From contig CAIOVE010000068.1 of NCBI GenBank assembly GCA_903861645.1, positions 1-38,084 on the forward strand: 38,084 nt of DNA. Direction: 5' to 3'. Below the pieces are notes generated by a model. That model was not told the DNA's origin. It made no database searches and saw only the letters and a program-made list of their open reading frames with translations. The stretch is from an uncultured Hyphomicrobiales bacterium. Its GTDB lineage: Bacteria; Pseudomonadota; Alphaproteobacteria; Rhizobiales; Beijerinckiaceae. Of this stretch, positions 13,228 through 35,151 are shown piece after piece. Positions within the stretch are counted from its first letter, which is position 1. Every line of letters begins with the position of its first letter. The translations under genes were made by a program, and so were the position numbers.

Positions 13228-14538
13228 ATGGTCACCGCCGCCGAGAACGAAATCCTGACGCGCGTTGGGCCGGGAACGCCCATGGGGCGCATGATGCGCC
13301 GCTATTGGCTGCCCGTCTGCGCCAGCGAGCAGGTGGCGCGGCCCGACGGCGCGCCGCTGCGGACAAAGCTCCTCGGCGAGAATTATGTCGTGTTCCGCGA
13401 CACGAGCGGGCGCGTCGGCGTCATGGAGGAATATTGCATGCATCGCCGCGCGTCGCTGGCGCTGGCGCGCGTCGAGGACAATGGCATCCGCTGCCTCTAC
13501 CACGGGTGGAAATTCGGCGTTGACGGCGAAATTCAGGAGACGCCAAACCATTGCGATGAGCGCTTCCGTCGTTCGCAACGCGCGCCGGCCTTCCCCGCGC
13601 GCGAGGCGGGCGGACTGGTCTGGGCCTATGTCGGTCCGCGCGAGCAGGAACCCCTTTTCCAGAAATACGCCTTTTTCGATGGCCCGGCGGAGAACCGTCT
13701 GATCTTCCGGCTCAACATTCCCGCGAATTATCTGCAGCTTTGGGAAGGCGGCGTGGATTCCTCCCACGTGGGAATCCTGCATTGCAATCTCGCCAATCCC
13801 GAGTGGAAGATACGCCCGGACTTCGCGCCCGATTTCGACGATTACACATCCGTCGCGCTCGCCAATGGCGACAACGCCCCGGAGATGGAGCTCGAGAATA
13901 CCGCCTATGGCTTCCACTACGCCGCCAGGCGCAAGGGTCCGCACACGCCCGATGGCGGGGAAACCTACAGCGCGCGCGTGACGACCGTCATGCTGCCGAC
14001 CGCGCGCATCATTCCGCTGACCTTCTATCAGTTCTTCCTGTTCGAGGTGCCGCGCGACGATGTCAGCACCAGCACCTACATCGTTTGCCATGGTCCAAGG
14101 GCGTTCGATCGCGACAAGATGAAGGCGGTGCTTGGCCTCGACAACGAACGCCTCTGGAACGAACGCGACTGCGACTACCGCGCCACCGAGGAAAACCTCT
14201 GGGGACAGGATCGAAGCGTGATGGATACCGTCTGGTCCGGCCTTGGCGGCCTCGGGCCGGAGGACGCAAGCATCGGCGTCTCCATGGGCCCCATCGTCGA
14301 GCGGCACAAGGAAGTGCTGGTCGCCGCGGACAAGGCCGTGGTGCGTCTGCGCGAACGCCTGCTGGAATCGGTGCGACGACACGAGGCGGGCGGCGCGCCC
14401 TTCGGTCTCGACATCGCCGACTATTCACGGGTTCGCAGCCTGCCTGACACCACGATACCCGTCGGCGAGCGCTGGCAGGACCATCTGCCGGACAACATGG
14501 GTCTGGGCGCGCGGCCAACCGAACGCGTCAACAACTAG
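13228..14538 (+). CDS. Rieske oxygenase alpha subunit, phthalate 4,5-dioxygenase-like
   Basis: A 436-residue ring-hydroxylating oxygenase component. The Rieske [2Fe-2S] site is C70-x-H72 ... C89-x2-H92, and the mononuclear iron site is E173-x3-D177-x2-H180-x4-H185 in LWEGGVDSSHVGILH; the bridging aspartate and facial triad histidines are therefore present. The N-terminus (GPGTPMGRMMRRYWLPV) is characteristic of the phthalate-dioxygenase-type, alpha-only group. Such enzymes insert oxygen into or demethylate aromatic acids using electrons from a separate reductase, which is not in this window. GGGGAG six bases before ATG 13228 supports the start. A second, different Rieske gene follows 19 bases later. 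Confidence 0.9.
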   Translation: MVTAAENEILTRVGPGTPMGRMMRRYWLPVCASEQVARPDGAPLRTKLLGENYVVFRDTSGRVGVMEEYCMHRRASLALARVEDNGIRCLYHGWKFGVDGEIQETPNHCDERFRRSQRAPAFPAREAGGLVWAYVGPREQEPLFQKYAFFDGPAENRLIFRLNIPANYLQLWEGGVDSSHVGILHCNLANPEWKIRPDFAPDFDDYTSVALANGDNAPEMELENTAYGFHYAARRKGPHTPDGGETYSARVTTVMLPTARIIPLTFYQFFLFEVPRDDVSTSTYIVCHGPRAFDRDKMKAVLGLDNERLWNERDCDYRATEENLWGQDRSVMDTVWSGLGGLGPEDASIGVSMGPIVERHKEVLVAADKAVVRLRERLLESVRRHEAGGAPFGLDIADYSRVRSLPDTTIPVGERWQDHLPDNMGLGARPTERVNN

Positions 14539-14557
14539 CCATCCCGGGGGATAGGGC

Positions 14558-15604
14558 ATGTTTCTTCGCAACGCATGGTATGTCGCGGCATGGCCGCGCG
14601 AGGTGACCGAAAAGCCGCTCGCGCGCACGATCCTCGACGAGCCCGTCGTGCTGTTTCGCGCGAAGGCAGGCAATGCCGTGGCGCTTCACGACATGTGCTG
14701 TCACCGCGCGCTGCCCCTGTCGATGGGCCGCATCGTCGGCGACAACATTCAGTGCGGCTATCACGGCTACACCTTCGACGCGACGGGCGTCTGCGTCGAC
14801 ATTCCCGGCCAGACGAACATTCCCGACCACGCGCGCACGCGTTCCTTTCCCGTTGTCGAGAAGTTTCATTGCGTGTGGATCTGGATGGGCGACGCGGAGG
14901 CCGCCGACCCCGCGAAGATTCCCGACATCTGGTGGATGGACCATCCGGACTGGAAGCCCTCGACACCCGACATGGCGCCGCTCAAATGCGATTATCGGCT
15001 GATCGCCGACAACGTGCTCGACGCGACCCACCTCACCTACGTGCATCCGACCACGATCGGCGCCAGCAGCATCGTCGAGTTCGAGCCGTTGATCGAACAC
15101 ACCGACCGCACGGTGCGCATTTCGCGCTGGATGATGAACCGCCCGCCGCCGCCCGCTTACGCGAAGGCCGGCGGCTTCGATGGCCCCGCCGATCGCTGGG
15201 CCGCCGTGGAATACTGGGCGCCCGCGACCTGCGTGAATTTCGCTGGCTGCGTCGACGTTGGCTTCGGCGGCGAGGGCGGAAACATCAAGGCGAGCCCGCG
15301 CCGCGTCGAGCTTGTCGCCATCAGCCTGCCGACGCCCGAGACCGCGGGCTCATGCCATTATTTCTTCGCCTTCGCGCGCGCCTTCAGGCACGACGACCCG
15401 GAAATGGATCATTTTTTCGGGCCGGGCATGGTGAAGGTGTTCGAGGAGGATTTCAGCATTCTGGAAGCGCAGCAGCGCATGCTGGAGAAATATCCCGACC
15501 GCAAGCGGGTCAGCACGATCTACGACCGCGGGCCCTTCCTCGCGCGGCGCATGCTCGACAAGATGATCGAGGCGGAGAACGCCGCCGCGAGAGCCGCGGA
15601 ATAG
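14558..15604 (+). CDS. Rieske oxygenase, vanillate O-demethylase-like
   Basis: A 348-residue oxygenase of the VanA/dicamba-monooxygenase group. The Rieske cluster ligands are C47-x-H49 and C66-x2-H69 (QCGYHGYTF). The catalytic iron site lies in DNVLDATHLTYVH with D155, H158 and H163. VanA-type enzymes remove O-methyl groups from vanillate-like methoxy-aromatics, releasing formaldehyde, but neighbours in the family act on other substrates, so vanillate is only a suggestion. It would fit with the feruloyl-CoA synthetase-like gene at 25557, since ferulate breakdown leads to vanillate. No VanB-type reductase is nearby. The gene starts 19 bases after the preceding Rieske gene with a GGGGGATAGGG leader, so they form a pair. 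Confidence 0.88.
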   Translation: MFLRNAWYVAAWPREVTEKPLARTILDEPVVLFRAKAGNAVALHDMCCHRALPLSMGRIVGDNIQCGYHGYTFDATGVCVDIPGQTNIPDHARTRSFPVVEKFHCVWIWMGDAEAADPAKIPDIWWMDHPDWKPSTPDMAPLKCDYRLIADNVLDATHLTYVHPTTIGASSIVEFEPLIEHTDRTVRISRWMMNRPPPPAYAKAGGFDGPADRWAAVEYWAPATCVNFAGCVDVGFGGEGGNIKASPRRVELVAISLPTPETAGSCHYFFAFARAFRHDDPEMDHFFGPGMVKVFEEDFSILEAQQRMLEKYPDRKRVSTIYDRGPFLARRMLDKMIEAENAAARAAE

Positions 15605-20172: not shown

Positions 20173-21372
20173 ATGCGCGTCTATCATTTCTCCGAGGAAC
20201 CCTATCCCGACGCCTGGGGCGCGGAGCGCCCGTCGCTGCGCATCACCTTGCCGAATGAAATATGCGATCCGAAGGTCACGCACCGGCTCTACAACCGCTA
20301 CATCGACGAGTGGATGCTTGCCGATGAACTCGGCTTCGACATCATGCTCAACGAGCATCATTCAACCGCGACGAGCCTCACCGCCTCGGCGAACATCATT
20401 CTGTCGATTCTCGCCCGCGTCACCGAGCGCGCGCGCCTTCTCGTGCTTGGCGTGCCCGTTGGCAATCGGCCCGACCCCATTCGCGTCGCCGAGGAGATGG
20501 CGATGATCGATTGCATTTCGCAGGGTCGTCTGGAATTCGGCATGATCAAGGGCGTGCCCTACGAGATCGAGCCGGCGAATTCCAACGGCGTCAGCCTGAT
20601 GCGACGCTTCTGGGAGGCGCATGATCTCATCATCAAGGCGATGACCACGCATGATGGCCCGTTCAATTTCGAGGGCGAGTTCTTCCATTATCGCAATGTC
20701 AACGTCTGGCCGCGGCCTTATCAGCAACCGCGTCCGCGCGTCTGGATTTCAACCGCCACGCCCGCCAACGCGCGCGAGATTGGCCAGAAGGGCCACGTGC
20801 TCGCGAGCTTCATGGGCGGCATCGCCGAGACCGTGAAGCTGCACAAGGCCTACGCCGAGGGCTATCGCGCCGGCGGCAATGCCGGGCCTTTGTCCGTGGA
20901 CAATTTCGCCTATCTCGCCATGTGCGGCGTCGGCTCGACAGAGGCCGAGGGTCGCCGGCGTTGCGATGTCATCGCCGATTACCTGCGCACCAACGCGCAG
21001 GTCGCCGACCCCTTCAACAAGCCGCCTGGCTATTTCAGCGTCGAGGCCGCGGTGCGTTCGGCGCGCTCGCTTAACCCGCGCGCCTTCCGCACGCTGTATA
21101 CGCCGTCGGGCCGCGCCGTTGAACTGTCAACGGCGTCGCTGGATGACTTCATCGAATGCGGCATCGCCTTCGCTGGCACGCCGGATCAGGTCTATCAACA
21201 GATCTGCGCGTTCGTGGATGGCATCGGCGGCCTCGGCAATCTGTTGCTGATGGGTCAGGGCGGCAAGCTCGACGCCGCCGACACCACCGACAGCATGAAG
21301 CTGTTCGCGCGCGAGGTCATGCCGCGCCTCAAGGAGCGCGAGGCGCGCCGCCCGGCGTTCGAGGCGGCGTGA
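20173..21372 (+). CDS. Luciferase-like flavin-dependent monooxygenase
   Basis: A 399-residue TIM-barrel protein of the bacterial luciferase-like superfamily, which uses reduced flavin and oxygen to hydroxylate, cleave or Baeyer-Villiger-oxidise its substrate. Typical segments are EHHSTATSLTASANIILSILA, the LVLGVPVGNRPDPIRVAEEMAMID strand-helix, and a QPRPRVWISTATPANAREIG stretch. It begins 14 bases after the hydrolase stop and appears cotranscribed. No flavin reductase is encoded nearby, so reduced flavin must come from elsewhere. The substrate cannot be named from sequence. Confidence 0.87.
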   Translation: MRVYHFSEEPYPDAWGAERPSLRITLPNEICDPKVTHRLYNRYIDEWMLADELGFDIMLNEHHSTATSLTASANIILSILARVTERARLLVLGVPVGNRPDPIRVAEEMAMIDCISQGRLEFGMIKGVPYEIEPANSNGVSLMRRFWEAHDLIIKAMTTHDGPFNFEGEFFHYRNVNVWPRPYQQPRPRVWISTATPANAREIGQKGHVLASFMGGIAETVKLHKAYAEGYRAGGNAGPLSVDNFAYLAMCGVGSTEAEGRRRCDVIADYLRTNAQVADPFNKPPGYFSVEAAVRSARSLNPRAFRTLYTPSGRAVELSTASLDDFIECGIAFAGTPDQVYQQICAFVDGIGGLGNLLLMGQGGKLDAADTTDSMKLFAREVMPRLKEREARRPAFEAA

Positions 21373-21422
21373 CATTGGCGCGGGCGCGCGCTAGGCAGGA
21401 CGAAACCATCGGAGGTTCGTCC

Positions 21423-22394
21423 ATGCGAGTCCTGACTCGCGCCCTCGCCTGCGTCGCCTTGCTCGTCGCGAGCGCGGCGGCCCTGGCGCAAGGCGCCTAT
21501 CCCACGCGGCAGGTCCGCATGGTCATGCCGTTTCCGCCGGGGTCGAGCACCGATATCATCGCGCGCATCATGGCCGACCAGTTGACCAAACGCTGGGGTC
21601 AGGCCGTCGTCGTCGACAATGTCGTCGGCGCCTCCGGCAACATTGGCGCGGCGACCGCGTTTCGCGCCGCGCCCGATGGCTACACGCTTTTGTTCGCGCC
21701 CCCGACCGCCTACGCAACCAACCATCTTCTGTTCAAGGATCCCGGCTACGACCCGGCCAGATGGTCGCCGCTGGGGCTGATCACGACGGCGCCCTACGTG
21801 CTCGCGGCGCGGCCGGATTTCCCCGGCTCGACCGTGCAAGACCTGATCGCCTACGCCAAGGCCAATCCGAGCAAGACCACCTTCGCCTCGGCGGGCGCCG
21901 GTTCGACCGTGCATCTTTCGGCGATTGAATTTGGACGACGCGCGGGCCTCGATCTCGTGCATGTGCCCTTCCGCGGCGCGGCGCCGGCGCTGACGGCGGT
22001 CATGGCGAGTCAGGTCGATTTTCTGTTCGACGTGATCTCGACTTCCATTCCCGTGCTCAAGGACAACCGCATCAAGGCGCTCGGCGTCGGCTCCGGCAAG
22101 CGATCAATATTTCTGCCTGACGTGCCAACCATCGCCGAACAGGGCCTGCCCGATTTCCGCGCGGTTACCTGGTTCGCCGTCGCCGGCCCACCCGGCATGG
22201 CGCCCGATCTCGTGGAAAAGATCAACGCCGACCTGCGCGCCATCATCGCCTTGCCCGAAGTGGCCGAGCGCATCCGCCAGATTCAGATGGACACAGCCTC
22301 GATGACGCCGGCCGAAACCACCAAATGGTTCAACGATGAGGCGGGCCTTTGGGGCCGCATCATCAAGCAGGCCGGCATCACGCCAAACGACTGA
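21423..22394 (+). CDS. Bug/TctC-family periplasmic binding protein
   Basis: A 323-residue exported binding protein of the tripartite tricarboxylate transporter receptor family. The signal peptide is residues 1-22 (ending AAALA-Q). The family hallmarks MPFPPGSSTDIIARIMADQL, a VVDNVVGASGNIGA segment and VHVPFRGAAPALTAVMASQVDF are clear. Members bind carboxylates, aromatic acids or amides. GGAGG before ATG 21423 fixes the start. TctA/TctB membrane subunits are absent, as for many expanded Bug proteins. It is the third gene of the hydrolase/monooxygenase unit and ends four bases before a convergent SDR gene. Confidence 0.9.
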   Translation: MRVLTRALACVALLVASAAALAQGAYPTRQVRMVMPFPPGSSTDIIARIMADQLTKRWGQAVVVDNVVGASGNIGAATAFRAAPDGYTLLFAPPTAYATNHLLFKDPGYDPARWSPLGLITTAPYVLAARPDFPGSTVQDLIAYAKANPSKTTFASAGAGSTVHLSAIEFGRRAGLDLVHVPFRGAAPALTAVMASQVDFLFDVISTSIPVLKDNRIKALGVGSGKRSIFLPDVPTIAEQGLPDFRAVTWFAVAGPPGMAPDLVEKINADLRAIIALPEVAERIRQIQMDTASMTPAETTKWFNDEAGLWGRIIKQAGITPND

Positions 22395-23163: not shown

Positions 23164-23289
23164 GCCCGCGCCCTCCCTTTTTTGGCGAGGTTAGGCGGGC
23201 GGGACCGCGCGGGCAACATGGGCGCCCCGACGAATTGACGGTTGACAGCGGGCCGCCCGAACGGCCACGAAAGCACGACGGAGACTGCC

Positions 23290-24162
23290 ATGATCAAGCT
23301 CGACGATATCATCGCCATCGACATTCACACGCACGCGGAAGAGCCTTGCGGCACCCACGCGGACGATGGCTACGACGATTTTCAGGACGCGATGAAGGCT
23401 TACTTCAAGCCCAAGCACAATCATCGCCCGACCGTGCCGGAAACCGCCGCGCATTTTCGCGAGCGCAAGATCGCCGCGGTGATATTCCCCGTCGACGCCG
23501 AGCGCGAGACGGGGTTCCGCCGATACAATAACGAGGAAATGGCGGAGCTGGCCGCGAAGGAAAGCGACATCCTCATTCCCTTCGGCAGCATCGACCCCGC
23601 CAAGGGCAAGGTCGGCGCGCGCGAGGTTCGCCGCCTCGTCAAGGACTTCGGCATCAAGGGCTTCAAGTTTCATCCGACGATGCAGGGCTTTTATCCCAAC
23701 GATCGCTCGGCCTATGTTCTCTACGAGGCGATTGTCGAGGCCGGCGTGCCGGCCCTCTTCCACACCGGCCAGACCGGCGTCGGCGCCGGCATGCACGGCG
23801 GCATGGGCATGCGGCTGAAATATTCCAACCCCATGTATCTCGACGACGTAGCGGCCGACTTTCCCGATATGAAGATCATTCTCGCGCATCCCTCCTTCCC
23901 ATGGCAGGAGGAAGCGCTGTCGGTCGCCACGCACAAGCCCAATGTCTATATCGACCTGTCCGGCTGGTCGCCGCGTTATTTCCCGAAGATTCTCGTTCAG
24001 TACGCGAATTCGATTTTGCGGCACAAGGTGTTGTTCGGTTCGGACTGGCCGGCGATATTGCCCGACCGCTGGCTGGCCGATTTCGACACGCTCGACATTC
24101 GCCCCGAGGTGAAGCCGCTGATCCTCAAGGAAAACGCCGCGAAGCTACTTGGCCTCAAGTAG
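23290..24162 (+). CDS. Amidohydrolase family 2 (ACMSD-like) metal-dependent hydrolase or decarboxylase
   Basis: A 290-residue TIM-barrel enzyme of the ACMSD/4-oxalomesaconate-hydratase-like branch. Metal ligands are visible: His13 and His15 in DIHTH, a histidine in LFHTGQTG, another in LAHPSFPW, and the aspartate in GSDWP. The family includes decarboxylases and hydrolases of aromatic-ring-cleavage products, which fits the catabolic surroundings. ATG 23290 has GGAG at 23279-23282 seven bases upstream; longer frames do not. The 3' end overlaps the convergent MarR gene by 18 bases. The exact reaction is not determined. Confidence 0.87.
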   Translation: MIKLDDIIAIDIHTHAEEPCGTHADDGYDDFQDAMKAYFKPKHNHRPTVPETAAHFRERKIAAVIFPVDAERETGFRRYNNEEMAELAAKESDILIPFGSIDPAKGKVGAREVRRLVKDFGIKGFKFHPTMQGFYPNDRSAYVLYEAIVEAGVPALFHTGQTGVGAGMHGGMGMRLKYSNPMYLDDVAADFPDMKIILAHPSFPWQEEALSVATHKPNVYIDLSGWSPRYFPKILVQYANSILRHKVLFGSDWPAILPDRWLADFDTLDIRPEVKPLILKENAAKLLGLK

Positions 24163-25473: not shown

Positions 25474-25501
25474 TTGCAAGGCTGGTGGCCACGGCTAGAA
25501 T
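25474..25501 (+). promoter_or_regulatory. Candidate promoter of the CoA-synthetase gene
   Basis: TTGCAA at 25474-25479 and TAGAAT at 25496-25501 are separated by 16 bases, a good sigma-70-type pair for this GC-rich genome, 55 bases before the ATG of the synthetase. The -10 element runs into the inverted repeat at 25500-25514, which fits repression by a bound MarR protein. Found by eye; no transcript data. Confidence 0.5.
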
Positions 25502-25514
25502 AGTTGTAAAGTAT
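25500..25514. promoter_or_regulatory. Inverted repeat, candidate MarR operator
   Basis: ATAGTT-GTA-AAGTAT is a near-perfect inverted repeat (five of six bases per arm) between the divergent crotonase and synthetase genes. It sits at the expected transcription start, just after the -10 element. Its outer ATAG/TAT bases recall the exact palindrome at 19257-19268 near the other MarR gene. The binding protein is inferred from context. Confidence 0.5.
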
Positions 25515-25556
25515 CACGATCTCGACCGCGCGCAAGCCGCGCCACCGGAGGAACAC

Positions 25557-27416
25557 ATGGCGGGTCAAGAAAGCGCGCGCGCGCCCATCCGTGTCGCGCG
25601 CATGGGCGATTGCCGGGCGACAATCGAAACCCGCGCCAATGGCGAGATGATCGTTCGCAACGTCAATCCGCTGGGCCCCTATCCCAAACGCATGACCGAC
25701 CGCCTCGATCACTGGGCGGCGGTCGCGCCAGATCGCGTGTGGCTCGCGGGGCGCGGTCTCGATGGTGAATGGCGTCGCGTGACCTATGCCGAGGCGCGGG
25801 CGATGGTGCGGCGCCTCGCGGCGGGCCTGCTGAAGCGTGGCCTGTCGGCGGAGCGGCCGCTGATGATCCTGTCGGGCAACGACATCGAACACGCGCTGCT
25901 CGGCGTGGCGGCCATGTATGTCGGCATCGCCTACGCGCCGATTTCGCCAGCCTATTCGCTCGTCTCGACCGATCACGGCAAGCTCAAATACATTTTCGAC
26001 CTGCTGACGCCCGGCCTTGTCTACGCCAGCGATGGCGCCCCGTTCGCCCGCGCGATCGCGAGCGCGACACCCGCGGAAATCGAGGTCGTTGTCGCGCGCA
26101 ATCCGCCCGAGGATCGCGCCGTCACGCGATTCGACAGCCTCATGGCGGAGGCGGACGACGCCGCGGTCGACGCCGCCAACGCGAGGGTCAATCACGAAAC
26201 GATCGCGAAATTCCTGTTCACGTCGGGGTCGACGGGAATGCCGAAGGGCGTCATCAACACCCAGCTCATGCTGTGCTCCAACATGGCGATGACCAGCGAG
26301 CACTTCGCGTGGCTGATGGACGAGCCGCCGGTGACGCTCGACTGGTCGCCGTGGAATCACACCGCCGGCGGCAATCACGATTTCAATCTCATGCTGAACA
26401 ACGGTGGCAGCATGTATATCGACGACGGCAATCCCACGCCGCGCGGCGTCGAGAAGACGGTCCGCAACCTGCGCGATGTTTCGCCCACCTGGTACTTCAA
26501 CGTTCCCAAGGGCTATGACGCGTTGATTCCCTATCTGCGCGCCGACGAAGCCCTGCGCAAATCGTTCTTCAAGGATCTGAAGGTCATGTGGTACGCGGGC
26601 GCGGGCATGGCCCAGCATGTTTGGGACGCGCTCGACGAACTCGCCGTGATGGCCACCGGCGAGCGCGTGCTCGTGCTTACGGGCCTCGGCGCGACGGAAA
26701 CGTCGCCCTTCGCGCTCGCCGCCAACCAGACGATGATTGGCGCGGGCGTCGTCGGCACGCCCGCCCGAGGCGTCGAGATGAAACTCGTGCCCGTCGAGGG
26801 CAAATACGAGGCGCGCGTCCGCGGCACGCTGATCACGCCCGGCTACTGGCGCCAGCCGGACCTCACCGCGAAGGCTTTCGACGAGGAGGGTTTCTACAAG
26901 TTTGGCGACGCCCTGCGTTTCGTCGATCGCGACGACGTCAACAAGGGCTTCATGTTCGACGGCCGCATCGCAGAGGACTTCAAGCTGGCCACGGGCACCT
27001 GGGTCGCCGTTGGTCCCCTGCGCGCGCAGTTCATCGACCAGTGCGCGCCGCTCGTGCACGACGTCGTGCTCGCCGGACTTGATCGCGATTACATCGGCGC
27101 GTTGATCTTTCCCGACTTCGCCGCTTGCTGCGAAATCATCGGGCCCGGCGCGCAATCCCTGCCGCTGGAGGAGATCGTCGCGCATCCGCGCGTGCGCGAA
27201 AGGATGACGGAATTGCTCGTCGCCCATGGCCGCAAGAGCACGGGCAGCTCAACCCGCGTCGCGCGCGCGATGCTGATGCACGAGGGGCCGTCGATCGACA
27301 AGAGCGAGATGACCGACAAGGGCTCGCTCAACCAGCGCGCCGTGCTCGCCAATCGCGCGCACCTGATCGAGCGGCTCTACGCGGAAACGCCGGGCCTCGA
27401 CGTTCTCCTGGGCTGA
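25557..27416 (+). CDS. Feruloyl-CoA synthetase-like acyl-CoA ligase
   Basis: A 619-residue AMP-forming ligase, the usual length of alphaproteobacterial feruloyl-CoA synthases. The ATP loop is FLFTSGSTGMPKGV, the adenine motif GLGATETSPFA, the hinge region KFGDALRFVD, and the distinctive DFKLATGTWVAVGPLR of this subfamily is present, as is the C-terminal DKGSLNQRAVLANRA. It would convert a hydroxycinnamate or related aromatic acid to its CoA ester using ATP. GGAGGA at 25547-25552 makes ATG 25557 the start in preference to an in-frame codon at 25485. The divergent crotonase and MarR genes complete the module. Its last 40 bases overlap the convergent LysR gene. Confidence 0.87.
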   Translation: MAGQESARAPIRVARMGDCRATIETRANGEMIVRNVNPLGPYPKRMTDRLDHWAAVAPDRVWLAGRGLDGEWRRVTYAEARAMVRRLAAGLLKRGLSAERPLMILSGNDIEHALLGVAAMYVGIAYAPISPAYSLVSTDHGKLKYIFDLLTPGLVYASDGAPFARAIASATPAEIEVVVARNPPEDRAVTRFDSLMAEADDAAVDAANARVNHETIAKFLFTSGSTGMPKGVINTQLMLCSNMAMTSEHFAWLMDEPPVTLDWSPWNHTAGGNHDFNLMLNNGGSMYIDDGNPTPRGVEKTVRNLRDVSPTWYFNVPKGYDALIPYLRADEALRKSFFKDLKVMWYAGAGMAQHVWDALDELAVMATGERVLVLTGLGATETSPFALAANQTMIGAGVVGTPARGVEMKLVPVEGKYEARVRGTLITPGYWRQPDLTAKAFDEEGFYKFGDALRFVDRDDVNKGFMFDGRIAEDFKLATGTWVAVGPLRAQFIDQCAPLVHDVVLAGLDRDYIGALIFPDFAACCEIIGPGAQSLPLEEIVAHPRVRERMTELLVAHGRKSTGSSTRVARAMLMHEGPSIDKSEMTDKGSLNQRAVLANRAHLIERLYAETPGLDVLLG

Positions 27417-28339
27417 CGCGCGGCGCGGCCGGGCTTGCCGCGCGCGTTCGCCCATTCGGCGACAAGCAAGTCGCGGAACCGCCGCGCCGCGGGCGACAGA
27501 TGTCCGCCGCGCCGCTCGACGATGCCCACCGTGCGCGAGATCGAGGGCTCGATGATCGGCCGCACGACAAAGGACGCGGAGGCCACGGGCGGCGTCGCGA
27601 GGCGCGGGAGCACGGAAAGGCCCAGCCCCGCTTCCGTCAGGCCCAACGCCGTCATCACGTGGTTGACCTCGTAAGCCCAGTCGAGCCGCACGCGCGCCTT
27701 CGTCAGCGCCGCGTCGAGCAACATGCGATTGCCGCTCGCGCGGCTGACGCCGATCAGGCGATGGCCTTCCAATTCGCGCCAGGCAATGGCGTCGCGCCGG
27801 GCGAGTTCATGATCCGGCCCGCAGGCCAGCACGAAATCATCCTCGAACAGCGGCGTGAATTCGAGATCGCCCTGCGAAGCGCCGACGAAATTGATTCCGA
27901 AATCCGCTTCCCCCCGCGCGACGCTTTCAAGACCGCTGTTGGCTGATTCATCCAGAATGCGAAAACTCACGCCGGGCTGCATGGCGTTAAACCGCTCGAT
28001 GACGCGCGGCAGGAAATAGAACGCCGCCGTCGGCACGCAGGCCATGACGATGCGCGCGCCAGACCGTCGGTCGAGACCGCCCACGTCGAGGATCGCCCGA
28101 TCGAACTCCTCGACCAGTCGGCGAAACGCCGGCTCGAAGCCACGCCCGACCTGCGTGGGCGCGACATGGCGCGTCGAACGCTCGAAAAGCTTGGCCCCCA
28201 GCACCGCCTCCAGCGACTGGACACGACGCGACAAGGCGGGCTGCGACAGCGCCATGGCGTCCGACGCCTTGTGGAAGCTACGGAGGTCGAAAACAGCCAG
28301 AAAGGCGCGAAGATCGCCAATTTCGGGATTAATGCTCAT
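27377..28339 (-). CDS. LysR-type transcriptional regulator
   Basis: A 320-residue regulator. Residues 5-65 form the winged helix-turn-helix (LRAFLAVFDLRSFHKASDAMALSQPALSRRVQSLEAVLGAKLFERS), and the remainder is the two-lobed inducer-binding domain. It is divergent from the six-gene catabolic operon starting at 28432, the classic layout for a LysR activator that also represses its own gene. ATG 28339 is used; a GTG one codon earlier is equally possible, and the ribosome site is weak. The 3' end overlaps the ligase gene by 40 bases tail to tail. The inducer is probably a substrate or intermediate of the operon. Confidence 0.9.
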   Translation of the reverse strand: MSINPEIGDLRAFLAVFDLRSFHKASDAMALSQPALSRRVQSLEAVLGAKLFERSTRHVAPTQVGRGFEPAFRRLVEEFDRAILDVGGLDRRSGARIVMACVPTAAFYFLPRVIERFNAMQPGVSFRILDESANSGLESVARGEADFGINFVGASQGDLEFTPLFEDDFVLACGPDHELARRDAIAWRELEGHRLIGVSRASGNRMLLDAALTKARVRLDWAYEVNHVMTALGLTEAGLGLSVLPRLATPPVASASFVVRPIIEPSISRTVGIVERRGGHLSPAARRFRDLLVAEWANARGKPGRAARQPRRTSRPGVSA

Positions 28340-28359
28340 CACGCATCAATATTTGACTT

Positions 28360-28376
28360 ATTTGCAATTTACAAAT
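28360..28376. promoter_or_regulatory. LysR box in the divergent promoter region
   Basis: ATTTG-N7-CAAAT is a perfect 5-bp inverted repeat that contains the T-N11-A core expected of LysR-type sites. It lies 21 bases from the LysR start and 56 bases before the operon's first ATG, in an unusually AT-rich patch. A second ATTTG half site at 28350-28354 may be part of an extended recognition or activation site. Binding is inferred. Confidence 0.65.
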
Positions 28377-28431: not shown

Positions 28432-29520
28432 ATGGATCGCAGACATTTCATGGCCGGCGCCTCGGCGACGACAGCGGCGACCGTTCTGCCCGCGAGCGGC
28501 GCACGGGCGGCGGTGAATTTCGCCAACCAGACCATCACCATTCTGTGCCCGTTTGGCGTTGGCGGCGGCGGCGACCTCTGGTGCCGTTTCATCGCGCCGT
28601 TTTTTGCGAAATACTTGCCGGGCCAGCCCAACGTCCTCGTCAAGAACGTGCCGGGCAGCGGCTCGATATCCGGCGCGAATCTCTACGCGGCGACGGCCAA
28701 GCCCGACGGCCTCACGGTGCTCAACACGTCCGGCTCGACGCAGTTTCCCTATTTGCTCGGCCAGAAGAACGTCAAATACGATTATCGCCAGTTGCGCTTT
28801 TTCCTCGCGGGCCCGACGGGCGGCGCCGCCTATATCTCCACCAAGATGGGCGTGTCTTCCCTGAAGGATCTCGGCAAGCTTAAGGGCGTCAAATTGCATT
28901 ACGCCAGTCAGGGACCGACATCGCTCGACCTCGCCCCCGTTCTCGCCTTCCGCCTGCTAGGCCTCGACGTTCAGGCGATTTTCGGCTTCCCGAGCCGCGG
29001 CGAGGGACTGATGTCGTTCGAGCGCGGCGAATCCGAGATCGACTATCAGACCACGACCGCCTACCTGCGCAACTCAACGCAGATCATCAAGAAGGGCGAG
29101 GCCACGCCGCTGTTTTCCTTCGGCGCCTTCGATGAACACGGCAAGTTCGGTCGCGATCCCAATTTTCCGGAATTGCCGCATCTGGCGGAAGCCTACGAGA
29201 TCGTCTTCGGCAAGCCGCCGTCGGGCATCGAATGGGAGGCGCTGGAAGCCTTCGTGCTCGCTGGCTTTCCCGCGCAAAAGCTGATGCTGCTGCAAAAGGG
29301 CACGTCGGACGAGATTGTCGAGGCCTACCGCGAGGCCGTGCGCAAGATGCGCAAGGACCCCGAATATCTCGCCAAGCGCGACGAGATCATCGGCGAATAC
29401 GAACAGGTGACAGACGCGCCCGGCGAGGCGCTCTACCAACGCGCGACGTCAATCACGCCCGCCGCGCGCGAATGGGTGCGCGATTATCTCGTCACCAATT
29501 ACAAGGTCGAGTTCAACTAG
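28432..29520 (+). CDS. Tat-exported Bug/TctC-like periplasmic binding protein
   Basis: A 362-residue binding protein related to, but longer than, the usual 320-residue Bug proteins. The N-terminus MDRRHFMAGASATTAATVLPASGARA is a twin-arginine signal with cleavage near residue 26. The mature part shows TITILCPFGVGGGGDLWCRF in place of the common P-F-x-P-G-G motif, then LVKNVPGSGSISGANLYAA. GGGGGGAT precedes ATG 28432; a longer frame from 28405 lacks this. It is the first gene of a LysR-controlled operon and likely delivers the pathway substrate, presumably a carboxylic acid. No TctAB membrane partner is present. Tat export suggests folding before export, less usual for this family. Confidence 0.83.
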   Translation: MDRRHFMAGASATTAATVLPASGARAAVNFANQTITILCPFGVGGGGDLWCRFIAPFFAKYLPGQPNVLVKNVPGSGSISGANLYAATAKPDGLTVLNTSGSTQFPYLLGQKNVKYDYRQLRFFLAGPTGGAAYISTKMGVSSLKDLGKLKGVKLHYASQGPTSLDLAPVLAFRLLGLDVQAIFGFPSRGEGLMSFERGESEIDYQTTTAYLRNSTQIIKKGEATPLFSFGAFDEHGKFGRDPNFPELPHLAEAYEIVFGKPPSGIEWEALEAFVLAGFPAQKLMLLQKGTSDEIVEAYREAVRKMRKDPEYLAKRDEIIGEYEQVTDAPGEALYQRATSITPAAREWVRDYLVTNYKVEFN

Positions 29521-29582
29521 CGCGCGGCCCCCGCGCGCAACCCCCCAACGTCGCCCAGCGCGATCATTGTCCAGGAAACCAT

Positions 29583-30941
29583 ATGTCCGCCACGATTATT
29601 GATTCCGTCATCTTCCGCGACATGTTCGGCGCGGCAGACATGCGCGAGGTCTTCTCTGACGAACGCCGCACGCAATACTATCTCGACATCGAGGCGGCCT
29701 TGGCCCGCGCGCAGGCGCGGCTTGGAATCATTCCACAAGAGGCCTGTGACGAAATCGTGCGCCACTGCCACGTCGAGCAGATCGACATGGCGAAACTCAA
29801 GACGACGACGGAGCGCATCGGCTATCCCATCCTCGGCGTCGTGCAGCAGATCGTCGCGCTCTGCGACAAGGGCCTCGGCGAATGGTGCCATTGGGGCGCC
29901 ACCACGCAGGACATCACCGACACCGCCACGATCATGCAGATCCGCGCGGCGCTGGAGCTCGTCGAGCGCGACATTCTCGCCATCGCCAATTCGCTCGCCG
30001 ACCTCGCGAAAAAATACCGCGACACGCCGATGGCCGCGCGCAGCAACCTGCAACAGGCGGTGCCGATCACCTTCGGCTACAAATGCGCCGTGCTTCTCGC
30101 GGCCTTCCATCGTCACATCGAGCGCCTGCGCCAGTTGAAGCCGCGCGCGCTCGTCGGCGAGTTCGGCGGCGCGGCCGGCAACCTCTCGTCGCTGGGCGAC
30201 ATGGGCCTGAAGGTTCAGGCCGAACTGATGAAGGAACTGGGGCTCGGCCAGCCCGAGATCGCGTGGCACACGACGCATGACCAGATCGCCGAGGTCGGCT
30301 GCTTCCTTGGTCTCGTGTGCGGCACGCTCGGCAAGATTTCCATGGACGTGAAATTGATGATGCAGACGGAGGTGGAGGAGGTGTTCGAGCCCTTCCACGA
30401 GGGTCGCGGCTCATCCAGCACCATGCCGCAAAAGCGCAACCCGATCTCGTCGGCCTATATCCACGCCAATATTTCCATGGTGCGCCAACACGTCGCCGCC
30501 CTGCTCGACGCGCTCGTGGCCGATCATGAACGCTCGACGGGTCCATGGGAAATCGAATGGATTTCCCTGCCGGAGATTTTCTGCCTCTCCGCCGGCGCGT
30601 TGAAGCAGGCGCGCAATCTCGTCGCCGGCCTCGAGGTCAACCCAAAGGCCATGCGCAAGAACCTCGACATCACCGGCGGTCTCGTTGTGTCGGAAGCGGT
30701 GATGATGGGCCTTGGCCCGGCGCTCGGACGCCAGCGCGCGCATGATCTTGTCTATGACATCTGCCGCGACGTCATCGCCACCGGCAAGCCCTTCCTCGAT
30801 CTGCTCGCCGCCAACAAGGAAATCGCCGCGCACATGACGCGCGAGCAACTGGCGCCGCTTGTCGATCCCGCGAACTACCTCGGCCAATGCGGCGAGATGG
30901 TCGACAACGTGCTGGCGACCCACGCCCGCGTGATGAAATAG
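29583..30941 (+). CDS. Fumarase/aspartase-superfamily lyase (PcaB/adenylosuccinate lyase-like)
   Basis: A 452-residue lyase of the adenylosuccinate lyase/3-carboxymuconate cycloisomerase branch. The superfamily signature GSSSTMPQKRNP is at about 276-287 with the mobile-loop serines; GATTQDITDTATIMQIR and TTHDQIAEVG hold other active-site regions. Superfamily members split a C-N or C-O bond with formation of a fumarate-like dicarboxylate, or run the cycloisomerase reaction. Purine or protocatechuate neighbours are absent; instead a hydratase and a CoA-transferase follow, so a specialised dicarboxylate lyase is more likely. AGGAAA at 29573-29578 supports ATG 29583. The gene is 62 bases after the binding-protein gene and 15 before the hydratase. 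Confidence 0.82.
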   Translation: MSATIIDSVIFRDMFGAADMREVFSDERRTQYYLDIEAALARAQARLGIIPQEACDEIVRHCHVEQIDMAKLKTTTERIGYPILGVVQQIVALCDKGLGEWCHWGATTQDITDTATIMQIRAALELVERDILAIANSLADLAKKYRDTPMAARSNLQQAVPITFGYKCAVLLAAFHRHIERLRQLKPRALVGEFGGAAGNLSSLGDMGLKVQAELMKELGLGQPEIAWHTTHDQIAEVGCFLGLVCGTLGKISMDVKLMMQTEVEEVFEPFHEGRGSSSTMPQKRNPISSAYIHANISMVRQHVAALLDALVADHERSTGPWEIEWISLPEIFCLSAGALKQARNLVAGLEVNPKAMRKNLDITGGLVVSEAVMMGLGPALGRQRAHDLVYDICRDVIATGKPFLDLLAANKEIAAHMTREQLAPLVDPANYLGQCGEMVDNVLATHARVMK

Positions 30942-30956
30942 ACGACCGGGGCGAAC

Positions 30957-31808
30957 ATGACCAACGTCGATATCGACCATCTCAGAAGCTGGATTGGCCG
31001 CGAGGAAACAGTCGAGGACAGCGTGACGCGCGTACCCATCCGCGCGTTGTCGGCGACGCTCGATCGCGACGATCCCGCGCCGCGCGATGGAGACATGTTG
31101 CCGCCGCTGTGGCACTGGCTCTATTTCCTGCCCGTGCACCGACAATCGGAGATCGGCCCCGACGGGCATCCCACGCGCGGCGGCTTTCTGCCGCCCGTGC
31201 CGCTGCCGCGGCGCATGTGGGCCGGCAGCCGGTTCGAGTTCCGCGCGCCCCTGCGCATTGGCGAGAATATCCAGCGCGTTTCGCGCATCGCCGACGTGAC
31301 CATGAAATCGGGCCGCACCGGGCCGCTTGTCTTCGTGCTCGTGCGCCACGAAATCACCGGCGAGCGCGGCGGCTCGTTCACCGAGGAGCACGACATCGTT
31401 TATCGCGGCGAGGCCCTGCCCGGCGAGCCAGCGCCCGCGCCGAAGCAGGCGCCCGCGACGTCGGCTTGGCGGCGCGACATCACGCCCGACGACGTGCTGC
31501 TGTTTCGTTATTCCGCGCTGACCTTCAATGGCCATCGCATTCATTACGACCGGCGCTATGTGACGGAGGTCGAGGGCTATCCCGGCCTCATCGTGCATGG
31601 GCCGCTGATCGCGACGCTGCTGATGGACCTCCTGCGCCGAAACACGGACGCGTCGGTTAAGTCCTTCACCTTCCGCGCGATGAAGCCGCTGTTCGATATC
31701 GCGCCTTTCGCGGTTTGCGGCGGCCCGACCGACAATGGCGACGTTTCGCTCTGGGCGCGCGACGCCGAGGGCAACCTCTGCATGCAGGCGGAAGCCACGC
31801 TCGCCTGA
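30957..31808 (+). CDS. MaoC/HTD2-like acyl-CoA hydratase, resembling mesaconyl-C4-CoA hydratase
   Basis: A 283-residue double hot-dog protein. The first half is a FAS1-like dehydratase domain (PPLWHWLYFLPVHRQSEIGPDGH, RMWAGSRFEF), and the second half holds YSALTFNGHRIHYDRRY and YPGLIVHGPL, signatures shared by HTD2-like proteins and mesaconyl- or itaconyl-CoA hydratases. These add water to an alpha,beta-unsaturated dicarboxylic acyl-CoA to give a malyl- or citramalyl-type CoA. GGGG at 30948-30951 precedes the ATG. It lies between the lyase and the CoA-transferase, so it probably hydrates the CoA ester of the lyase product. The precise substrate is inference. Confidence 0.83.
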   Translation: MTNVDIDHLRSWIGREETVEDSVTRVPIRALSATLDRDDPAPRDGDMLPPLWHWLYFLPVHRQSEIGPDGHPTRGGFLPPVPLPRRMWAGSRFEFRAPLRIGENIQRVSRIADVTMKSGRTGPLVFVLVRHEITGERGGSFTEEHDIVYRGEALPGEPAPAPKQAPATSAWRRDITPDDVLLFRYSALTFNGHRIHYDRRYVTEVEGYPGLIVHGPLIATLLMDLLRRNTDASVKSFTFRAMKPLFDIAPFAVCGGPTDNGDVSLWARDAEGNLCMQAEATLA

Positions 31809-31830
31809 ACCGCGTTCAAGAAAGACTCCG

Positions 31831-33039
31831 ATGCGCACGCCCTCAGCCGCAACGAAACGCCCCGGTCCGCTTGCCGGCACGACCGTCATCACGCTTGAGC
31901 ACGCCATCGCCGCGCCCTTCTGCACGCGCCAACTCGCCGACCTCGGCGCGCGCGTCATCAAGATCGAGCGGCCGGGCGTTGGCGATTTCGCGCGCGCCTA
32001 CGATACGCGGGTCAAGGGTCTCGCCTCGCATTTCGTCTGGTGCAACCGCTCGAAGGAAAGCCTGACGCTCGATGTCAAGCACAAGGGCGCGCGACGCGTG
32101 CTCGACGCGCTCGTGTCGCGCGCCGACATCGTCGTGCAAAACCTCGCGCCGGGCGCGGCGGCGCGGCTCGGGCTGGGCGCGGCGGAATTGCGCGCGAAGC
32201 ATTCGCGCATGATTGTTTGCGATATTTCAGGCTATGGCGACTCCGGGCCTTATCGCGACCGCAAGGCCTACGATCTTCTGATCCAGAGCGAGGCGGGTTT
32301 TGTCACGACGACGGGATCGGCCAACGAGCCCGCGAAGGCCGGCATTTCCATCGCCGATATCGCCGCGGGCATGTACGCCTATTCCAATATTCTGGCGGCG
32401 CTGTTGCAGCGCGGCGTCACCGGCGAAGGCGCCCATGTCGAGGTCTCCATGCTGGAGTCGCTCGGCGAGTGGATGAGCTTTCCGCTTTACTACGCGTTCG
32501 ACGGCGCGCCGCCGCCGCCGCGCGCCGGCGCCGCCCACGCGACGATTTATCCCTACGGTCCCTTCGCCGCGGGCGATGGCAAGGTCGTGATGTTCGGTCT
32601 GCAAAACGAGCGCGAGTGGGCGATCTTCTGCGCCGATATTCTCGGCGACGCGGCGCTCGCGACCGACGAGCGCTTCTCCTCCAACATCAAGCGCGTGGCC
32701 AACCGCGACGCGCTGAAGGCGATCATCCTCGATCGCTTCGCCGCGCTCACGGCGCCGCAAGTCGTCGCTTTGCTCGACGCCGCCGGCATCGCCAACGCCA
32801 ATGTCAACGAAATGCGCGATGTATGGGCGCATCCTCAGCTTGCCGCGCGCGACCGTTGGCGCGATATCGGCACGCCGCAAGGCGTCATACCCGCCCTATT
32901 GCCGCCAGCCACGCCCGACACGTTCGACGCGCGCATGGACCCGGTGCCAGCGCTTGGCGAACACACGGACGCGATCCTCGCGGAAATCGGTCTGACTGGC
33001 GCCGAGATCGCAACGCTGCGTTCGGAGGGCGCCATCTGA
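31831..33039 (+). CDS. Class III (CaiB/BaiF-type) CoA-transferase
   Basis: A 402-residue enzyme moving CoA between carboxylic acids. The N-terminus GPLAGTTVITLEHAIAAPFCTRQLADLGARVIKIE is the family opening, and Asp148 in KAYDLLIQSEAG is the aspartate that forms the acyl-enzyme anhydride. The C-terminal part includes NVNEMRDVWAHPQLAARDRW, also typical. In the 3-hydroxypropionate cycle a class III transferase and a hydratase of the same kind as the neighbour act together on mesaconyl-CoA, a useful parallel. ATG 31831 is 22 bases after the hydratase stop; the ribosome site is weak (AAGA). The CoA donor cannot be told. Confidence 0.88.
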   Translation: MRTPSAATKRPGPLAGTTVITLEHAIAAPFCTRQLADLGARVIKIERPGVGDFARAYDTRVKGLASHFVWCNRSKESLTLDVKHKGARRVLDALVSRADIVVQNLAPGAAARLGLGAAELRAKHSRMIVCDISGYGDSGPYRDRKAYDLLIQSEAGFVTTTGSANEPAKAGISIADIAAGMYAYSNILAALLQRGVTGEGAHVEVSMLESLGEWMSFPLYYAFDGAPPPPRAGAAHATIYPYGPFAAGDGKVVMFGLQNEREWAIFCADILGDAALATDERFSSNIKRVANRDALKAIILDRFAALTAPQVVALLDAAGIANANVNEMRDVWAHPQLAARDRWRDIGTPQGVIPALLPPATPDTFDARMDPVPALGEHTDAILAEIGLTGAEIATLRSEGAI

Positions 33040-33073
33040 GGTGTGGCGCGCCCGCGCCGAGGGAAGCCATTCG

Positions 33074-34081
33074 ATGAGCTGGTTCGTTGATTTGACAGGC
33101 TTCGAGGAGACGACCTACGAGGAAACGAGGTCGCGGTTCAGCCTCGATGGCGAATGTTTGACGTCGAAAGTCAACGGGAAAAGCTGGTCGATCGGCGCCT
33201 TTGAGATGACGTCACTGTCGCGGCTGCGACAGTTGACGGAAGACCTGCCTTCGCAACGCTCGACAATGCGCATCGAGGTCGGCGACGTTCGTGGGATGCA
33301 CGCGCGCGCGGCATTCGCGGGCGCGATGTTCCAGGTTGCCTCGCAATTCAACGCGCTAGAAATGATCAAGCCGGAAGTGACGCCCGAGGAAGGCGTGACC
33401 CGCTACGCGGGCGATAACACGCAAGGCCCCGCCTGCGCCCTCGCCGCCGCGCCCGCGACCATCTTCCGCAACTATTTTGTCCCCGTCGGAGGGCGGGAAG
33501 GCCAGACCCGCGACCGACAACTTGACGGGCTGGCCACTATTGGCGACGTGCTCGCCGCCGCGCTCCATCGCCCCATCGGGTCTCTATGGGAGATGCGCAA
33601 CGGCTACGCGCTGTGTGAGAGGGATGGGCTCGTCGCCATCAACGCGTATCTACGGAACCTCGATGAAAACGAGCTGGACGCGTTGCGCGGCAACCTGTCG
33701 ATCGGTCTGCAACGTGGCGTGGAAGTCACCCAACCTGGCGCACCAGCGGGGCATCGCGTGTCGCAGGCGTTTTGCTCGGCGCTGCCCATCGCCTACACGC
33801 GCATCCGCGCCCACGACTGGACGCCTTTCGCAAACCTCGTGCTGGAGGCCGCCTATGAAGCGACGCTGCGCGCGGCGATGATCGCGGCAAGCCAGGGCGG
33901 CTCGAATATCGTGCTCCTGACCACGCTTGGTGGCGGCGTCTTCGGCAACCAACGCCATTGGATATTCGACGCCATCGCGCGTGCATTGAGGGTGACCAAA
34001 GGCGGCGGCCTCGACATACGCGTTGTGAGCCATGGCCAGCCTTCGGCCGATCTCGTCGACTTTATCGGGAGCGTTACCTGA
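33074..34081 (+). CDS. Uncharacterised protein with macro-domain-like motifs
   Basis: A 335-residue soluble protein that I cannot assign to a named family. Marked segments are FQVASQFNALEM (86-97), YAGDNTQGPACA (111-122), RNYF (132-135), GQTRDRQLDGLATIG (about 143-157) and TLGGGVFGN (284-292). The first and last resemble the Asn-containing and Gly-rich loops of ADP-ribose-binding macro domains, and I recall similar uncharacterised proteins in other bacteria and some algae, but this is a memory-based resemblance. No signal peptide or membrane helix. GAGGGAAG at 33059-33066 supports ATG 33074. It sits inside the lyase/hydratase/CoA-transferase operon, and its codon use looks somewhat less GC-biased than its neighbours', which may indicate separate acquisition. 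Confidence 0.62.
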   Translation: MSWFVDLTGFEETTYEETRSRFSLDGECLTSKVNGKSWSIGAFEMTSLSRLRQLTEDLPSQRSTMRIEVGDVRGMHARAAFAGAMFQVASQFNALEMIKPEVTPEEGVTRYAGDNTQGPACALAAAPATIFRNYFVPVGGREGQTRDRQLDGLATIGDVLAAALHRPIGSLWEMRNGYALCERDGLVAINAYLRNLDENELDALRGNLSIGLQRGVEVTQPGAPAGHRVSQAFCSALPIAYTRIRAHDWTPFANLVLEAAYEATLRAAMIAASQGGSNIVLLTTLGGGVFGNQRHWIFDAIARALRVTKGGGLDIRVVSHGQPSADLVDFIGSVT

Positions 34082-34161
34082 AGACGGCCTGATTGGCGCG
34101 CGCGCCATGGAATCCCGCGCGGAAGCCGGATACAATGACCGCCTCAACGGATGGAACGCCC

Positions 34162-35151
34162 ATGATCATCGATATCTTCACGCATATCGCGCCAAAGTCA
34201 TTCCTCGATCGCATGAACGAGCTTGGCCCGCGCCTCGGCAACATCGTCAACCGCCTGCTCGCGGTCAAACCCCTGTCGGACCTCGATCTGCGTTTTCGCG
34301 ACATGGACAGCGTGCCCGATTACCGGCAGTTGATCTGCCTGCCCAACCCCTCGCTGGAGGAAATCGGCCCCGCCGACACCGGTCGCGAACTGGCGAAAAT
34401 CGCCAATGACGAACTCGCCGAACTCTGCCGCAAGCATCCCGACCGCTTCGTGGGATTCGCCGCCGCCGTGCATCTCGACGATGTCGACGGCGCCATTCGC
34501 GAGGCCGACCGCGCCATTCACCAACTCGGCGCCAAGGGCGTGCAGACCTACAACCACATCTCCGGCCACCCGCTCGACGAACCGCGCTTCCGGCCGTTTT
34601 TCGAGGCCATGGCGAAATGGGATCGACCGATCTGGCTGCATCCGACGCGCACCGCCAACATGATGAAGGACTACGCCAGCGAGGACAAATCCCGCTACGA
34701 AATGTGGTGGTGTTTCGGCTGGCCCTACGACACGTCCGTCGCCATGACGCGCCTCGTGTTCGATGGCCTATTCGACCGGCACCCCGATCTCAACATCATC
34801 ACCCACCATTGCGGCGGCATGATACCCTTCTTCGACGGGCGCGTCGGTCCCGGCCTCGACGTGCTCGGCTCGCGCACCAGCGACGAGGATTACTCCAACG
34901 TGCTGCCATCGCTGAAGCGGCCGCACATGGAATATTTCAAGAAGTTCTATGGCGACACGGCCATGTTCGGCGCGACCAACGGCGTCAAATGCGGCCTCGA
35001 TTTCTTTGGGTCGAGCCAGATCGTTTTCGCGACCGACGCGCCGCTGGGCCCGATCCGCAAGACCTTCGACGGCATCGACGGCATGGACCTCGACCCCGCG
35101 GCCAAGAAGGCGGTGTTTTACGGCAACGCCGCGCGTCTGCTGAAACTTTGA
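34162..35151 (+). CDS. Amidohydrolase family 2 protein (ACMSD/decarboxylase-like)
   Basis: A 329-residue TIM-barrel protein of the ACMSD/gamma-resorcylate-decarboxylase group. Retained metal-site segments are IWLHPTR, ITHHCGGMIPFF and the FATDAP aspartate. The N-terminal His-x-His is altered: MIIDIFTHIAP has Phe6 where the first histidine is expected and keeps His8. This may mark a subfamily rather than damage, since the rest is well preserved. ATG 34162 begins exactly at the barrel strand; TTG 34093 and ATG 34135 are in frame but would add unrelated residues. It is the last gene of the LysR-linked operon, 80 bases after the macro-like gene, and ends four bases before the convergent pump gene. 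Likely a decarboxylase or hydrolase of a ring-derived acid. Confidence 0.84.
   Translation: MIIDIFTHIAPKSFLDRMNELGPRLGNIVNRLLAVKPLSDLDLRFRDMDSVPDYRQLICLPNPSLEEIGPADTGRELAKIANDELAELCRKHPDRFVGFAAAVHLDDVDGAIREADRAIHQLGAKGVQTYNHISGHPLDEPRFRPFFEAMAKWDRPIWLHPTRTANMMKDYASEDKSRYEMWWCFGWPYDTSVAMTRLVFDGLFDRHPDLNIITHHCGGMIPFFDGRVGPGLDVLGSRTSDEDYSNVLPSLKRPHMEYFKKFYGDTAMFGATNGVKCGLDFFGSSQIVFATDAPLGPIRKTFDGIDGMDLDPAAKKAVFYGNAARLLKL

Follow-up and report, generated by a model that had tools for sequence, protein, structure and literature searches.

On what substrate would a lyase of the fumarase superfamily act when its gene shares an operon with those of a hydratase and a class III CoA-transferase? The question is raised by six plus-strand genes that face a LysR gene in contig CAIOVE010000068.1 (38,084 nucleotides; C68, hereafter the window), one contig of the 4.18 Mb genome, in 108 contigs, of an uncultured Hyphomicrobiales bacterium (assembly GCA_903861645.1). 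The original prediction, made from the letters and their reading frames, proposed that an imported acid is cut by the lyase to an unsaturated dicarboxylate, which is then activated with CoA and hydrated, with the mesaconyl-CoA chemistry of the 3-hydroxypropionate bi-cycle as a model. The outline of this proposal stood. However, the lyase groups with trans-aconitate decarboxylase, and the predicted reaction is therefore the decarboxylation of a tricarboxylate, not the cleavage of an N- or O-substituted succinate; also, itaconate degradation proved to be a closer parallel than the bi-cycle. The operon probably encodes the catabolism of trans-aconitate via itaconate. Its enzyme families are ordinary, and the new feature would be a Tad1-type enzyme as the entry step of itaconate degradation.

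Lyase relatives and signature residues

The protein matches the Pfam families Lyase_1 and ADSL_C and, as first described, contains GSSSTMPQKRNP. In a phmmer comparison with the PDB, five entries of the trans-aconitate decarboxylase Tad1 of Ustilago maydis (9h3i, 9h4e, 9h4g, 9h4h and 9xb2) came on top with up to 558.8 bits, followed by 3c8t, named fumarate lyase (454.9 bits), and then by the PcaB 1re5 (361.6 bits). Identity with Tad1 was 59%, without a gap over 435 residues.

Relatives of the lyase were pooled from 31 loci, 41 near genomes (own included), 385 genomes sampled evenly across the class and the plasmids of PLSDB (60 and 14 of 521 records listed). Two octapeptide patterns from the N-terminus served to build the 31-locus collection, which is therefore incomplete. 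Only one copy of identical proteins was used in the trees, and the careful tree also lacks nine rows with long branches; PurB and further long rows were placed in a separate quick tree only. PurB and five lyases (L065, L067, L118, L119 and L123) were excluded from the counts of residues and neighbours; L119 has pcaC and pcaD, and no pcaHG match.

The careful tree, of 61 rows, has a clade of 26 (support 100/100) made up of Tad1, the lyase of the window and 24 others from bacteria. This Tad1 clade takes in all lyases of the careful tree linked to itaconyl-CoA hydratase (Ich) and none of those linked to pcaHG. In a quick tree with plasmid rows added, the pcaHG-linked lyases (13 kept) formed a separate clade with a support of 98, the Tad1 clade comprised 30 rows, and the Komagataeibacter lyase L154 adjoined Tad1 (Shimodaira-Hasegawa-like approximate likelihood ratio test, SH-aLRT, 100 and 96); a Tad1 clade without L154 was not rejected (approximately unbiased (AU) test, p = 0.416).

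Six residues (I79, L98, N155, E193, K257 and S277) are identical in 29 of the 29 named rows of the clade, Tad1 included; L154 has A at position 98. Position 155 is N in the Tad1 clade against H in 22 of 22 other loci, and position 277, S in the clade, is mostly G in PcaB (14/16) and mostly A at the other loci (18/22). Among the Tad1 entries of the PDB, S277 corresponds to Ala in 9h4h only and to Ser in the other four, and 9h4g alone differs at the positions of G80 and R317. Because single entries differ there, these three sites were probably probed on purpose by the depositors of the structures. G80, S277 and R317 are all kept in the lyase of the window, and the fourth site that varies among the entries, Ile or Phe there, is His272.

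Members of the Tad1 clade go by pcaB or adenylosuccinate lyase in annotations, that of Azospirillum brasilense being a pcaB. This naming, a narrow acceptance by the NCBIfam PcaB model (TIGR02426, 361.6 for a cut-off of 355.75) and other aromatic-degradation genes in the window would fit a lyase that is PcaB itself, the 3-carboxy-cis,cis-muconate cycloisomerase of protocatechuate degradation and a member of the same superfamily. We consider this extremely improbable and already contradicted. PRK09053 reached 506.4, under its cut-off of 595, and the pcaHG-linked PcaB proteins, 31-48% identical to the lyase, have their own clade. None of the 16 pcaHG-linked lyases has an Ich neighbour, pcaHG was absent within 6.5 kb of all 27 Tad1-clade loci counted below, and the own genome gave no good match to PcaH, only partial ones of 58 and 44 bits (PcaG was not searched). 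PurB was rejected as well (purB model, 301.3 for a cut-off of 326.2); a separate PurB-like gene, 27% identical to the lyase, is found on contig C81 of the own genome. Thus a lyase grouping with true PcaB or PurB beside the matching pathway, the outcome that the original prediction had set against itself, was looked for and not found.

Neither in the other genomes of the class sample (385) nor in 398 genomes sampled from the phylum did we detect a lyase of more than 59% identity, and the Tad1 clade is therefore rare in those samples. Four of the 40 other near relatives carry one at 77-95% identity.

Partner enzymes and neighbouring genes

The hydratase, the CoA-transferase and the amidohydrolase were recovered as predicted. 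For the hydratase, the only PDB relatives were the itaconyl-CoA hydratase 8khg (248.5 bits; 122 of 263 aligned columns identical) and the near-identical 8huc (245.5 bits), named MaoC_dehydrat_N protein. The CoA-transferase matched its Pfam family with 342 bits and has Asp at position 148, which we take to be the catalytic one. It passed no specific NCBIfam model, and 2-methylfumaryl-CoA isomerase was rejected as a candidate (TIGR04253, 67.8 bits for a cut-off of 725). In a Comamonadaceae cluster with genes of the Ich, Mcd, CaiB, citramalyl-CoA lyase (CCL) and MmgE types (L063), Ich is 65% and CaiB 67.5% identical to those of the window; the available text of PMC12290011 describes such a gene set for itaconate and methylsuccinate degradation. 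The Ict-Ich-Ccl cluster of Pseudomonas and Cupriavidus shares with the operon a homologous hydratase and a CoA-transferase, but starts from itaconate or methylsuccinate and has Ccl inside, with no lyase or decarboxylase described in that text (PMC12290011).

Neighbours were counted within 6.5 kb at 27 bacterial Tad1-clade loci, window and L154 excluded; at five of these loci, less than 3 kb of sequence lies to the left (right ends were not counted). Ich was present at 13 of the 27 and at none of the 44 other loci (Fisher p = 3.5e-7, a value that overstates independence since the loci are related). With L154 moved into the Tad1 clade, as its tree says, the counts became 13/28 and 0/43. CaiB of at least 45% identity accompanied 11 of the 27 and LysR of at least 40% accompanied 7 (43-56%, beside the same genes, in Bradyrhizobium, Azospirillum, Cupriavidus and Variovorax). 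Other neighbours were PrpF (6), DctA (6), TctC (5), a relative of the binding protein of the window (3), TctA (2) and CCL (2); fumarase was found at none. At the 28 other loci (L154 included), we counted GntR 12 times, DctA 7, TctC 7, fumarase 3, PrpF once and Ich never, and 16 loci chosen for their pcaHG had no Ich either. Among the matches listed, seven of seven plasmid records with a lyase of at least 60% identity have Ich within 3 kb. In the class sample, pcaHG was nearby in 12 of 13 lyases of at most 48% identity and in 0 of 10 of at least 51%. A 'PCAD' neighbour match in L012 reached only 26% and was not counted.

Genes of LysR, DctA, Ich, CaiB, a CoA ester lyase and the lyase stand together in Bradyrhizobium CB82 (L058), as do those of Ich, CaiB, a CoA ester lyase, the lyase, DctA and LysR in Variovorax SRS16 (L064); these are the sets bearing a CoA ester lyase. 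A. brasilense and three other Azospirillum loci combine LysR, PrpF, DctA, Ich, CaiB and lyase, with no CCL match, and Cupriavidus oxalaticus has Ich, CaiB, lyase, LysR, TctC and PrpF. PrpF occurs at L062, L148-L150, L059 and L023. At the last of these, in a Ktedonobacteraceae metagenome-assembled genome, the genes after that of the lyase encode CaiB, a MaoC protein of the mesaconyl-CoA hydratase type (PF19315), PrpF (37%) and an acyl-CoA dehydrogenase; the MaoC protein, a hydratase of another family, takes the place of Ich. The lyases of L020 and L025 lie directly 3' of TctC-TctB-TctA. Closest to the window are the same-genus L092 (lyase 95%), with solute-binding protein, lyase, Ich, CaiB and amidohydrolase genes, 60 bases from CaiB to amidohydrolase and no orphan, and L008 (lyase 93%), without orphan, binding protein or adjacent LysR. 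The six genes are not one conserved unit: the co-occurrence in relatives that the original prediction proposed to look for held for lyase, hydratase and transferase, and failed for orphan and amidohydrolase. What relatives share is lyase, hydratase and CoA-transferase, accompanied by genes for a regulator and an importer.

Another explanation would be that the lyase cuts some other 2-substituted succinate (C-N, C-O or C-S) to itaconate, mesaconate or fumarate, and that the CoA enzymes process the product. The GntR, DctA-type symporter, TctC and class II fumarase genes (12, 7, 7 and 3 of 28) at loci between the Tad1 clade and PcaB (47-59% identity) are neighbours expected of fumarate-forming lyases, and itaconate and mesaconate would suit the downstream enzymes alike. 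Nevertheless, we regard it as unlikely for the window, the clade of which departs from the in-between loci at N155, K257 and S277, contains Tad1, the only biochemically defined member, and has no fumarase within 6.5 kb at any of its 27 loci.

Adjoining the Tad1 clade, the lyases of L151 (5113-10305), L153 and L155 have GntR, a dicarboxylate symporter or TctC, and class II fumarase genes beside them; those of L151 and L153 are annotated pcaB, and this setting suggests an uncharacterised fumarate-forming lyase. At L033 (8912-11335), a lyase outside the Tad1 clade has a PrpF-family gene directly 5' and a TRAP-type (tripartite ATP-independent periplasmic) DctM-family gene upstream, and thus the non-Tad1 group may include tricarboxylate enzymes.

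Proposed route from trans-aconitate

For the operon of the window, we infer the following route. A periplasmic TctC-like receptor would deliver the tricarboxylate to a permease of the Tct type whose genes lie outside the operon, and the Tad1-type lyase would convert trans-aconitate to itaconate and CO2. The class III CoA-transferase would then form itaconyl-CoA from itaconate and succinyl-CoA, the hydratase would yield (S)-citramalyl-CoA, and a CitE-type lyase, also encoded elsewhere, would split the latter into acetyl-CoA and pyruvate. Induction would depend on the LysR protein, which may sense a pathway intermediate at the ATTTG-N7-CAAAT box.

The binding protein had been described as Tat-exported. 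A twin-arginine (TAT_signal) match and a TctC match are indeed present, but both are below Pfam cut-offs (20.4 for 22.7 and 20.2 bits for 27, respectively). It scored 33 bits against the TctC structure 7ndr, and a structure model built from three sequences was poor (predicted local distance difference test, pLDDT, 40.6). Relatives of this protein lie near the lyase in L009/L010 (68-70% identity) and L092 (88%), and TctA is encoded at two other places in the own genome. The protein is likely the receptor for the imported tricarboxylate. A strong TctC gene is also found elsewhere in the window, within 21156-22394.

Several observations weigh against the trans-aconitate route. The binding protein has its TctC match under the cut-off, and no TctAB adjoins the operon. 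Nesting of Tad1 inside the bacterial clade, as opposed to a sister position, was not established (AU test, p = 0.303). Ich is missing from the 6.5-kb surroundings of 14 of the 27 loci of the Tad1 clade, and Ich adjacency had to be rejected as a class-wide property: the class sample has 23 other lyases, all outside the Tad1 clade, and in none of them does the fetched region hold Ich. Fumarase near three and PrpF near one of the 28 other, mostly sister-group loci mean that substrates vary across the superfamily. For the PrpF of A. brasilense, the closest solved structures are YbhH and oxalomesaconate isomerase, 3-methylitaconate and PrpF methylaconitate isomerases ranking lower than both. The narrow pass on the PcaB model belongs here too. 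Also, the operon has no citramalyl-CoA lyase gene. HpcH_HpaI-family genes occur at four places in the own genome; the two CitE-type proteins scanned (contigs C29 and C79) reached 173 and 141 bits on the RipC/Ccl model, for a cut-off of 375, and compared with three CCLs their identity was 29-38% by blastp and 33 and 41% by tblastn. A search of the own genome for a PrpF-type isomerase, run without a positive control, gave no match. Finally, the route leaves the accessory amidohydrolase unexplained.

Itaconate production, on the Ustilago pattern, is very unlikely to be the purpose of the system; in that case the product might serve as an antimicrobial and leave the cell through the neighbouring pump of the major facilitator superfamily (MFS), with CoA-transferase and hydratase as self-protection. 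Tad1 is biosynthetic in U. maydis and its cluster has an MFS exporter, according to the available text of PMC4720413; an EmrB-type MFS gene adjoins the operon in the window and in L008, and L024 has an MFS gene 5' of its lyase. However, the MFS gene of the window is on the opposite strand, with a homologue at 1 of the 31 loci, binding-protein or importer genes (TctABC, DctA) lie beside the lyase at many loci, catabolic sets with a CoA ester lyase exist, and no PrpF isomerase for the supply of trans-aconitate was found in the own genome.

Among known systems, Tad1 is the closest to the lyase by ungapped identity, clade and all six signature residues. In U. maydis it serves itaconate biosynthesis with the PrpF-family aconitate isomerase Adi1 as its partner (PMC4720413, available text), whereas the window has a bacterial operon with predicted itaconate-degrading enzymes and no PrpF found. 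A second Ich-homologue locus of Cupriavidus necator, likened here to the window by its description, has a hydratase, a CoA-transferase and an 'adenylosuccinate lyase family' gene with no Ccl nearby; in the available text, the authors assigned it in 2025 only to 'a different pathway' (PMC12290011). The tar system of Bacillus velezensis is likewise a regulator-importer-enzyme set for trans-aconitate, but its aconitate isomerase TarA makes cis-aconitate, and neither 'decarboxylase' nor 'itaconate' occurs in the main text of the paper (PMC11495376). In our literature searches, which did not cover most subscription journals, trans-aconitate decarboxylase was not described from any bacterium, and nothing relevant on bacterial homologues or rhizosphere catabolism appeared, among the matches listed. 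By titles and abstracts, the work listed on trans-aconitate decarboxylase and itaconate was fungal, engineering or review. As originally stated, no pathway is assigned to this gene set in the searchable literature.

It is fairly likely that members of the Tad1 clade are true bacterial trans-aconitate decarboxylases, misnamed PcaB or adenylosuccinate lyase, which feed an itaconyl-CoA route bypassing aconitate isomerase and are possibly the source of the itaconate pathway of Ustilago. Itaconate acts against microbes and also serves industry as a building block. If the route is real, trans-aconitate would be assimilated in a second way beside isomerisation, the C. necator gene trio lacking assignment would gain a function, the misannotation of clade members would be corrected, and new enzymes for itaconate production might become available. 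Trans-aconitate is abundant in sugarcane and sorghum (PMC8871043, the abstract of which says aconitic acid).

Operon layout and accessory genes

The coordinates of the genes (Table 1), the gaps of 62, 15, 22, 34 and 80 bases between the six open reading frames and the LysR box, which sits between the LysR and binding-protein genes, agree with those first described. By eye, similar TTTGCA/TTGCA-TTT-ACA stretches are seen in the intergenic regions of L058 and L062; none was noted in L059 and L064.

Table 1. Features of the operon and its regulator in the window.
Feature	Position	Strand	Basis or remark
LysR-type regulator	27377..28342	-	LysR_substrate and HTH_1; divergent from the operon
LysR box	28360..28376	.	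Perfect inverted repeat ATTTG-N7-CAAAT, T-N11-A type
Tat-exported TctC/Bug-like solute-binding protein	28432..29520	+	Weak TctC and TAT_signal matches
Predicted trans-aconitate decarboxylase, Tad1 clade of the PcaB/PurB superfamily	29583..30941	+	Lyase_1 and ADSL_C
Predicted itaconyl-CoA hydratase, FAS1_DH_region / MaoC-like	30957..31808	+	Closest structures 8khg and 8huc
Predicted succinyl-CoA:itaconate CoA-transferase, class III CaiB/BaiF, Asp148	31831..33039	+	CoA_transf_3
Orphan gene, without Pfam family	33074..34081	+	Insertion relative to the closest operons
Amidohydro_2 protein, accessory	34162..35151	+	Pfam; seen only in the three closest operons

The orphan had been called macro-like and counted as a member of the system, and neither view held. 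Its protein has no Pfam, NCBIfam or PHROG match, all PDB matches have E > 0.08, and a single-sequence model was unusable (mean pLDDT 44.5). The gene is present in 4 of the 385 class genomes, own included, and relatives of about 42-46% identity occur in 336 plasmid records, mostly of Klebsiella and E. coli. In the four plasmids opened, all relatives are annotated hypothetical protein; they lie near repA or traI in Citrobacter IncFII and Klebsiella IncFIA/IncFII plasmids, and near insertion sequences in Nostoc and Caballeronia. We place the orphan outside the pathway because it is scarce in class genomes, the four plasmid relatives inspected lie near genes of replication, transfer or insertion sequences, and it is missing from L092 and L008, the two closest operons, where CaiB and amidohydrolase adjoin.

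The closest named structures to the amidohydrolase are 5-carboxyvanillate and gamma-resorcylate decarboxylases, and a second Amidohydro_2 gene lies at 23242-24162 of the window. The acyl-CoA synthetase gene of the window (25485-27416; PRK12582 subfamily) has its counterpart in L008 directly 5' of the lyase, without LysR or binding protein between them. Elsewhere in the window, two adjacent Rieske oxygenase genes, LigXa-like and VanA-like (13228-15604), hint at aromatic demethylation.

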